Positions 43,582 to 46,211 of a DNA stretch of 64,000 bases are shown piece by piece. The position numbers were made by a program, and so were the translations under genes. The DNA lies in contig CADAUA010000003.1 in NCBI GenBank assembly GCA_902791035.1, positions 62,001-126,000 of the forward strand. Reading direction: 5' to 3'. The DNA is from an uncultured Coriobacteriaceae bacterium. GTDB lineage: Bacteria; Actinomycetota; Coriobacteriia; Coriobacteriales; Atopobiaceae. Below the pieces are notes generated by a model, which did not search any database, had not been told where the DNA came from, and saw only the letters and a list, made by a program, of their open reading frames with translations. Numbering within the stretch: position 1 is the first letter of the stretch; every line of letters starts with the position of its first letter.

Positions 43582-45552
43582 CTACCCATTCACCGCCCAG
43601 CTTGGTCTCCCCTCGGTGGGAAAGTCGGTGTCGAACACCATATATCTGAGGTCAGCCTGGGACACGTCCCAGCCCTCGAGCGCGGTCGCATCCTTGAGGG
43701 ATTTGCAGCCATAAAACATACCCCCGATATATACCACGTGCGAGGTGTCCCAGCCCGCCAGGGGCGAGACGTCAGTAAGGGATGTGCAGTCTTCGAACAT
43801 GCCGGCGATGTTGGTCACAGCCGAGATGTCCCAGCTCGCAAGGGGCGAGATATCAGTGAGGGATGTGCAGCCGTCGAACATGATGGACATGTTGGTAACG
43901 TGCGAGGTGTCCCAGCCCGCAAGGGGCGAGAGATCAGTGAGGGATGCGCAGCCGTAGAACATGCTGGACATGTTGGTAACGTGCGAGGTGTCCCAGCCCG
44001 CAAGGGGCGAGAGATCAGTGAGGGACGCCCAGCCTTGGAACATGCCGGACATGTTAGTAACATTCGAGGTGTCCCAGCCCGCAAGGGGCGATAGGTCGCC
44101 GCGTCTCCCGCCGTTAGTGACGAACATATGGCCCATGTTGATCACGTGCGAGGTGTCCCAGCCCGCAAGGGGCGAGAGGTCGACGAGGGACGTGCAGCCG
44201 CCGAACATGTCCTCCATGTTGGTCACAGCCGTGGTGTCCCAGCCCGCCAGGGCGGAGACATCCGTGAGATGCGTGAAGCCTGCGAAGAGCTCTGATGAGT
44301 CTGGTGCCATGTGGATAGTGCCCGAGCTCTCCACTTTGGTCACTCCGGACTTGTCGAAGCTAGCCCACCAGTTGTCTGTGCCATCAGGAATCTCGATGGA
44401 GGTCAGCGTGCCCTCGCCGCGCCAAGAGTCAACGGGCCTCACGTAGAGAGTATTGTCCGCGATCCGCCACTCGCAGGTGCCCCAGACGGTCCAGGTCCCG
44501 GCGTCGTCCGCGAAGGGACCGGGGTCGGAGGGGGTCCCGGGATCGGCCGTGAGGTGGTCCCACTCAGCCTCGCTCACGGCGGCGGGGCCGCCGATCACGT
44601 GGCCGGAGGTGACGCGGGAGTCCTGGTAGCCGCTGTACACCGCGTCCACGGCCTGCGTCTGGCCCGGGTTCATGATGGCGAGGACGGAGTCGAAGGCGCC
44701 GGCGAGGGGCGCGGCGCAGAGGGCGTCCCAGTAGCCGTCGCCCGTGGCCACGCACATGTGGGAGGTGGTCATGCCCTCGCCGAGCTCCCACTTGGCTATC
44801 TCCGCGGAGGTCTTGACGGCGTTCTCGCCGGCGAGGCGCACGACCTGCTTGCCGGCGAGCTGGCCCTCGACCTCGCCCGAGACGGCCGCGGTGCCCCCCA
44901 CGATCACGACGCGGTCGAACCCCTGGACGTCAGCCAGGGTGGCGTCGTCCAGCATGTTGCGGCCGTCCGTGAGGAAGATCGGGGCGTGCCTGGCCCAGGC
45001 GTAGGGGGCTATGGACAGGGCGTCCCAGTAGCCCGTCCAGGTGGCCACGACGCAGGTGTCGCCCCAGCCGCCCCTGGACTCGTAGGCCTCGCGTGCCGTG
45101 TCGCGCGCGGTGTCTCCGTAGACGCGGGTGACCTCGCACTTCTCTCCGCACGTGGCACGCACCTCGTCCAGCACTAAGTCGGCGACAGCCGCCGGGCCGC
45201 CCAGCACGACCACCCTGCTCGGGGCCAGCCTCTCGAGCTGCTCGGCCGTCTCGTCGCGCAGGTACGACGTCGGCGTGATCAGCACGGGTGCGCCGTCGAG
45301 TCCCGCCAGGCCGGAGCCCGCGAGGGCGTCCCAGTAGCCGTCGCCCGTGGCCAGGCAGACCGTCCCACCGCGCCCGTCCGGGAAGGCGCCGTCCGCCTCG
45401 AGGACCCTCTCCATCGTCCCGTACGCGTTCTGCCCCCAGAGCCTGTCCCAGCTCGCGCCCTCAGCGAGCGCCGCCCTTGGCGACGCCGCCACGAGCACCG
45501 CCAGCGCGAGCGCCACGAGCGCCCTCAGCCGACTCCCGTACCCCTTGCCCAT
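43582..45552 (-). CDS. CWB2 surface protein with DUF285/BspA-type leucine-rich repeats
   Basis: 656 residues from ATG 45552 (a GTG at 45567 is also in frame, but GGAGG lies between them). A Sec signal peptide (residues ~1-31, ending ALAEG) is followed by three CWB2 units (~35-330: WGQNAYGTMERV, GYWDALAGSG, VVVLGGPAAV and repeats). A linker leads to ~8 tandem 27-residue repeats (~430-640) of the form LSPLAGWDTSHVTNM then MFYGCASLTD, the surface protein repeat family TIGR02167/DUF285. Repeat 2 has VTNGGRRGD in place of the GGCTSL core. There is no LPxTG signal; CWB2 provides wall attachment. A role in adhesion is inferred from the family. See the poly-G tract upstream. Confidence 0.88.
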   Translation of the reverse strand: MGKGYGSRLRALVALALAVLVAASPRAALAEGASWDRLWGQNAYGTMERVLEADGAFPDGRGGTVCLATGDGYWDALAGSGLAGLDGAPVLITPTSYLRDETAEQLERLAPSRVVVLGGPAAVADLVLDEVRATCGEKCEVTRVYGDTARDTAREAYESRGGWGDTCVVATWTGYWDALSIAPYAWARHAPIFLTDGRNMLDDATLADVQGFDRVVIVGGTAAVSGEVEGQLAGKQVVRLAGENAVKTSAEIAKWELGEGMTTSHMCVATGDGYWDALCAAPLAGAFDSVLAIMNPGQTQAVDAVYSGYQDSRVTSGHVIGGPAAVSEAEWDHLTADPGTPSDPGPFADDAGTWTVWGTCEWRIADNTLYVRPVDSWRGEGTLTSIEIPDGTDNWWASFDKSGVTKVESSGTIHMAPDSSELFAGFTHLTDVSALAGWDTTAVTNMEDMFGGCTSLVDLSPLAGWDTSHVINMGHMFVTNGGRRGDLSPLAGWDTSNVTNMSGMFQGWASLTDLSPLAGWDTSHVTNMSSMFYGCASLTDLSPLAGWDTSHVTNMSIMFDGCTSLTDISPLASWDISAVTNIAGMFEDCTSLTDVSPLAGWDTSHVVYIGGMFYGCKSLKDATALEGWDVSQADLRYMVFDTDFPTEGRPSWAVNG

Positions 45553-45606
45553 GTTCCCTCCAGTCACGTCATCCGCGCCCCGTCGGCGCGGGTCGCCAAG
45601 ACGCTA

Positions 45607-45618
45607 CCCCCCCCCCCC
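45607..45618. repeat. Homopolymer C12 (G12 on the coding strand) upstream of the CWB2-LRR gene
   Basis: Twelve consecutive C lie 55-66 bp before the start codon of the leftward surface protein gene. Such tracts slip readily in replication and can alter promoter spacing. Confidence 0.85.
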
Positions 45619-45651
45619 GCATTGCGGGACTGTTACGCGGGCCCCAGCGCC

Positions 45652-45670
45652 GGGCGGGCAGCCGGGCGGG
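45652..45670 (+). other. G-quadruplex-like motif
   Basis: Four GGG runs (45652, 45656, 45664, 45668) with loops of 1, 5 and 1 nt fit the classic G4 pattern; more G runs follow at 45685-45697. It lies ~100 bp upstream of the surface protein gene, on the strand opposite its coding strand. Confidence 0.55.
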
Positions 45671-45778
45671 CGGTAGGCAGTGCAGGGGCGGGCGGGGCAC
45701 CACGCCCCCGTACCCCACTGGCACTCTGGTAGCCATACCCTTCAGACCACTGATTGACCTGAGCTAGCATGCCGCGGT

Positions 45779-46030
45779 GTACTGACTCCGCACGTTGGGC
45801 GGGAATATCCGCCACAATCCCCAACCCCAGTACGGTCATGGCGGTGTTTGCCCAGCTAACAGCTCAGGGCGGCGTACTGACTCCGCACGCTGGGAGGGAA
45901 TATCCGCCACAATCCGCAACCCCGGAACGGTCCTAGCGGCATAACCGCAGGTAACGAAGTCAGGCGTCGCACTGACTTCGCCCACCCGACGGCAAGTATC
46001 GCCGGAACTCCTAACCTCAGTACGGTGCCC
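45779..46030. repeat. 95 bp tandem repeat (2.7 copies)
   Basis: GTACTGACTCCGCACG begins at 45779 and 45874, and a diverged GCACTGACTTCGCCCA at 45969, each 95 bp apart. Units share GGGAATATCCGCCACAATCC, then AACCCC(A/G)G and ACGGTC. The third copy is weaker. The 659 bp gap 45553-46211 holds C12, the G4 motif, this array and a terminator, and no convincing gene. Confidence 0.85.
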
Positions 46031-46141
46031 CCACATGTAGGGTGAACGCGCAGCCTCGGCAGGCTCCTCCGACATGTGGGGCGGCCAAGGGACGACAAGC
46101 CCTGCCAGGCTGGCAGTCGACTAAGCTGGCGGTCGAAACAA

Positions 46142-46173
46142 GAGAGGGGCGCCCGACTTTCCCCGGGCGCCCC
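46142..46173 (-). terminator. Terminator after the kinase-like gene
   Basis: GAGGGGCGCCCG (46142-46153) pairs perfectly with CGGGCGCCCCTC (46162-46173); on the minus strand TCTTGTTT follows. Confidence 0.85.
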
Positions 46174-46211
46174 TCGCGCTTGTCAGCCTGCGCGACTGCC
46201 GCTAGTCGCGA

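Follow-up and report, generated by a model that had tools for sequence, protein, structure and literature searches.

Does the run of twelve G residues that precedes a cell-wall protein gene in this window (the whole 64-kb stretch of DNA analysed here) act as a random switch of the gene's expression, and if so, at what level? Positions 45607-45618 of the window read CCCCCCCCCCCC on the plus strand, giving a G12 tract on the coding (minus) strand that lies 55-66 nt 5' of the ATG, and the sequence thus bears out the length and position given in the earlier note, which had proposed phase variation of a 'CWB2-LRR' surface protein. This tract is the only run of at least eight identical bases in the window. 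A first-order Markov estimate gives 0.05 (C) and 0.014 (G) runs of at least 12 per window, and estimates built from longer runs place the expectation for this length lower still than the Markov figure. The genome to which the window belongs (G000; 2.69 Mb in 37 contigs, 99% complete) holds 25 G/C runs of length 7, three of length 8, two of length 9, two of length 10 and one of length 12, so that the window tract is the longest genome-wide. Geometric decay from lengths 7 to 8 predicts 0.4 runs of at least 9 and 0.0007 of at least 12, compared with five and one seen. The G12 tract is therefore beyond chance, and of the kind expected of a poly-G contingency sequence, i.e. a homopolymer of about eight or more that exceeds chance expectation. 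All eight G/C runs of at least 8 in this genome read as G on the contig minus strand (C1, C3, C6, C10, C14, C17 and C26); the runs of 7 split 15:10 by strand, and the one-sidedness of the longer runs is possibly chance.

The gene 3' of the tract (43582-45552, minus strand) encodes a protein of 656 aa, in which three CWB2 repeats (PF04122, 6e-39) and DUF285/BspA-type LRR repeats (PF03382, 3e-46), both far above the cut-off in profile matching, stand behind a signal peptide whose hydrophobic segment was recognised by script and by eye. This is the make-up of a CWB2 and BspA/DUF285 cell-wall protein, and the surface-protein label of the earlier note was right. From tract to start, the coding strand runs G12-TAGCGT-CTTGG...GGAGGG-AAC-ATG, with GGAGGG as the ribosome-binding site (45556-45561, minus strand). 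On the same strand, the preceding APH-like gene (46985-46212) is closed by a strong intrinsic terminator at its 3' side (46144-46175, minus strand), and the target gene therefore probably needs its own promoter within 45553-46143. The intergenic DNA between the terminator region and the target gene, about 590 nt long, holds repeat copies and then the tract. The repeat is 87 nt long and is present, upstream of the tract, in two copies that are 83% identical and have a 95-nt period (45774-45955, no strand assigned). They belong to an array (45774-46040) whose unit measures about 87-95 nt and which has, besides these two clear copies, a degenerate third; relatives that are 71% identical lie at G000:C11:44163-44313 and G000:C1:431111-431223 (beside rplX), and on these comparisons the 87-95-nt repeat is a dispersed intergenic element. 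No run of at least 7 was found near the start of the paralogues in the same genome or of the homologues examined in other genomes.

How might the tract bear on transcription? The hexamer TAGCGT (45601-45606, minus strand) abuts its 3' side and is a candidate -10 element of the form TANNNT, a motif enriched at the same place in long upstream sense tracts across the family (see below). At the place expected for a -35 element lies CCCGCA (45623-45628, minus strand), which would leave a 16-nt spacer to TAGCGT if placed as in the choline-binding protein locus L127, and which is weak and not consensus-like. No consensus promoter was detected at the target gene, the best scores falling below the shuffled background. 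A good -35 element is often missing from actinobacterial promoters of high GC content. A TANNNT is expected to abut a tract by chance in about 1-3% of cases; by itself, the abutting TAGCGT is suggestive only, and it may represent the -10 element of the target gene. Because there is neither a recognisable -35 nor a promoter that scores above shuffles, explanations that place the effect in the leader, or that invoke no effect at all, stay alive and are weighed below.

The tract also sits in a genome without mismatch repair of the MutS-MutL or NucS type. Profile models found no match to MutS1 or NucS in this 99%-complete assembly, and the same models match control genomes. This agrees with the published finding that neither NucS nor MutS-MutL is present in any of the Coriobacteriia analysed (PMC5290159). 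Assignment of the genome to this class comes from the closest named relative of the protein, which belongs to an uncultured Coriobacteriaceae, and is otherwise presumptive. Since MutS1 and NucS are absent, slippage at G12 would go uncorrected by MutS-MutL or NucS.

Taken together, we somewhat favour the view that G12 is a hypermutable poly-G contingency sequence and belongs to the promoter region of the CWB2/BspA-LRR gene, with a predicted role in switching. Under this model, replication slippage would change the G count and the change would stand uncorrected without MutS-MutL or NucS; since TAGCGT, the -10-like hexamer, follows the tract directly on its 3' side, any gain or loss of G would shift the distance from the -10 to the upstream contacts of RNA polymerase; and the altered spacing would turn transcription up, down or off, as a random on/off or dimmer switch. 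We infer that the length of G12 in this way sets the expression of the target gene.

Other long G tracts in the same genome were also located. One G10 (contig C6) is placed 8 nt before the start of a sugar-transferase gene (Bac_transf) within a capsule-type operon, and another (C1) precedes, by about 82-92 nt, a small gene beside a signal peptidase, while one G9 (C10) falls inside an MBOAT reading frame and a second (C14) near a contig end. Four tracts, among them the one in the window, could be assigned to a gene, and all four have G on the sense strand. The G9 of the MBOAT O-acyltransferase (L011 2629-2637; G000:C10:44628-44636) is near the 5' end of the frame, and could switch a cell-surface modification at the level of translation. 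A G10 is found at the 5' end of Bac_transf genes in two genera (L010 2456-2465, which is G000:C6:64955-64964, and L263), the proteins being 58% identical; in the G000 copy each of the three frames meets a stop codon no more than 12 nt 3' of the tract, and this G10 may therefore act as a promoter or ribosome-binding element.

Of the 140 family genomes, 101 have tracts of G10 or longer. To survey them, we compared loci of about 3 kb around 142 tracts of at least G10, three of them from the window's genome, with 78 exact-G7 controls, calling genes with a home-made caller (codon-scored open reading frames, longest start) that recovers the expected window genes. Of the 142 long tracts, 62 were found in sense at a gene's 5' end, compared with 19 of 78 controls (p 0.005), and the ratio of sense to antisense placement was 62:19 compared with 19:18 (p 0.01); with related loci removed, the p values were 0.015 and 0.029, respectively. 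Many of the tracts in the family had no called gene nearby, and 34 of 130 were left unassigned. Among the upstream sense tracts (n = 36 after removal of related loci), TANNNT abutted the 3' side in seven, one of them the window tract (1.25 expected), TTG[AC] occurred within 14 nt on the 5' side in eight (2.7 expected), and six combined a TTG[AC] on the 5' side with a TANNNT within 12 nt on the 3' side (0.47 expected; 0/1000 shuffles). No such enrichment of -35/-10-like motifs was seen in the other long tracts or in the exact-G7 controls. Locus L264, an extreme tract with Ns, and the low-complexity loci L177 and L241 were left out of this motif test. Among the clear examples are the choline-binding protein gene of L127 (TTGACA-ATGC-G11-TAACTT), L245 (TTGAC-G11-TATGTCC-TAGCCT, a 17-nt spacer) and L252 (an 18-nt spacer). 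Furthermore, domains linked to the cell surface, capsule or defence are found in the genes next to tracts (DUF285/LRR_5, choline-binding, collagen-binding, Big_8, Flg_new, Bac_transf and BrxA), and the families listed for 37 control genes include none of these. Signal peptides were not significantly enriched among the sense 5' targets (21/62 vs 4/19, p 0.40). The family evidence supports a transcriptional action of long upstream sense G tracts.

The survey also yielded tracts whose lengths can be compared. In genus g33, a conserved arrangement TTGCC/TTGAC/TTGTC-G(n)-11 nt-TANAAT stands upstream of an orthologous ABC-transporter gene in about 20 species, with proteins that are mostly 91-100% identical. 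The 20 uninterrupted tracts take five lengths (n = 8, 9, 10, 11 and 12), and a few species have interrupted ones. These loci (L331-L357) offer a ready-made natural series for studies of promoter spacing. In addition, genome G051 has two loci whose flanks are 98.6% identical over 361 nt and which carry G16 and G21 between TTGCGT and TAGACT. In this pair (L215 and L216) a gene for a secreted protein has its promoter and 5' end duplicated, the frame of the second copy diverging and stopping after 100 codons. A near-identical glycosyltransferase region occurs in two genera (L154 in G051 and L264 in G120), with G28 in one and a very long, N-flanked G run in the other. The g33 lengths of 8-12 and the G16/G21 pair of G051 indicate that, at least on an evolutionary timescale, tract length is what changes quickly at promoters of this kind; these comparisons are between species or between copies, the window's own genus being represented by one genome. 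By analogy, the window tract is itself likely to vary in length.

Could such tracts simply accumulate? Without mismatch repair, G runs would be expected to grow in non-coding DNA, and the tract could vary in length and leave expression unaffected. The absence of MutS1 and NucS fits this neutral account, as do the wide occurrence of G10+ tracts among the family genomes, many of them away from gene starts, and the failure to predict a good promoter at the target gene. Neutral growth would not, however, be expected to generate the sense bias and the -35/-10 association, which are absent in the G7 controls and other tracts, and it is also at odds with the association of tracts with surface, capsule and defence genes. 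We consider it rather unlikely.

Alternatively, the tract may vary and act after transcription, within the 5' leader, where folding, a G-quadruplex or a small-RNA target could tune translation. A position 55-66 nt before the ATG corresponds to a usual leader length, and two hairpins can form: a short one, CCGCGCC-GACGG-GGCGCGG (45573-45591, minus strand), which is present in the centroid fold, and a second, CCCGC-AAT-GCGGG, which extends into the tract. There is also a precedent in Helicobacter pylori, where, as cited in PMC4081817, the variable G-repeat in the leader of a chemotaxis receptor is targeted by a small RNA (Pernitzsch 2014). Against this, the whole leader is no more stable than its shuffles (z +1.3), it matches no Rfam family at threshold, and the tracts of the family go together with -10/-35-like hexamers. 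An effect at the level of the leader thus appears improbable.

We regard it as very improbable that the tract is an artefact of assembly or sequencing, such that its true length is shorter or its reported length is the consensus of mixed reads. It is true that the genome is a 37-contig draft, that G tracts are hard for Illumina sequencing (the G's-end effect, PMC9187656) and that the eight longest runs share a strand; but the tract lies well within a contig of 170 kb, flanked on either side by normal genes, and similar tracts are present in family genomes whose contigs are of chromosome size (G051, G087, G090 and G120).

Finally, translational phase variation, in which the tract would lie within an upstream-extended frame and slippage would move the gene in and out of frame, is the mode used at bifidobacterial pilus loci (PMC9187656) and would have a parallel in the MBOAT G9 of the same genome, but it is ruled out here, since a TAG stop (45604-45606, minus strand) abuts the tract as the first codon of the CDS frame on its 3' side at any tract length, so that slippage never puts an upstream start in frame, and since both the Shine-Dalgarno sequence and the signal-peptide start lie 3' of the tract. 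The coding frame of the target gene neither contains nor reads through the tract, as it would in a switch of the bifidobacterial pilus type; instead, the tract is of the contingency type that lies outside and upstream of the frame, where frameshift control is precluded. With frameshifting excluded, any effect of length must act on transcription or on the leader. The phase-variation reading of the earlier note is thus partly supported, by an exceptional tract on the sense strand, 5' of a secreted cell-wall protein, in a genome without MutS1 or NucS, and by family tracts that lie between -35-like and -10-like elements and differ in length at orthologous and duplicated promoters; the in-frame TAG narrows it to effects on the promoter or leader.

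If promoter-spacing control by G12 holds, a common class of gut actinobacteria would flip surface proteins at random through promoter G tracts, at a rate unchecked by mismatch repair; adhesion or immune recognition could then come to differ at strain level among the members of one clone, and a reference genome would display one state only. More interesting than the single window tract is the pattern across the family. It is an even question, in our judgement, whether the Coriobacteriia run a class-wide transcriptional phasome, with poly-G in the -35/-10 spacers of surface, capsule-transferase, transporter and defence genes and the window tract as one switch; if they do, gut communities would constantly hold expression variants. 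The system would also provide a clean natural experiment on how slippery tracts are kept, used or purged where repair is lacking. Switches based on poly-G in promoters are already known from other bacteria, and we found no report of homopolymeric tracts or phase variation in Coriobacteriia or Collinsella in the open-access literature, which is not proof of their absence from this class.

Among known systems, the Campylobacter phasome (PhasomeIt, PMC6321876) likewise has poly-G, of at least 7, as its dominant contingency repeat, but most of its tracts fall inside reading frames (82% in one data set, PMC6321876), whereas the window tract lies upstream. Closer in host is Bifidobacterium breve, also an actinobacterial gut commensal, with G11-G12 tracts at cell-surface structures (sortase-pilus loci bbr_0113 and bbr_1889, PMC9187656). 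There the tracts are intragenic and translational, in contrast to the intergenic window tract with its excluded translational effect; the same authors mention G tracts in promoter spacers, without detail (PMC9187656). Established promoter poly-G switches, as described in PMC7864442, include Neisseria meningitidis porA and Treponema pallidum tp0126. The tp0126 and tpr tracts of Treponema resemble the window tract, a putative promoter element, as poly-G in the promoters of surface-protein genes and are length-variable, with tp0126 working by 17-nt spacing (PMC7864442); they differ in that the effect is experimentally shown, and in belonging to an unrelated organism and protein family. The porA tract lies between -35 and -10 elements; the window tract, by comparison, is a predicted switch, has no recognisable -35 and belongs to an actinobacterium without mismatch repair. 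The likeness to porA lies in a poly-G run that belongs, putatively so in the window, to the promoter region of a gene for a surface protein and is expected to act through -35/-10 spacing.
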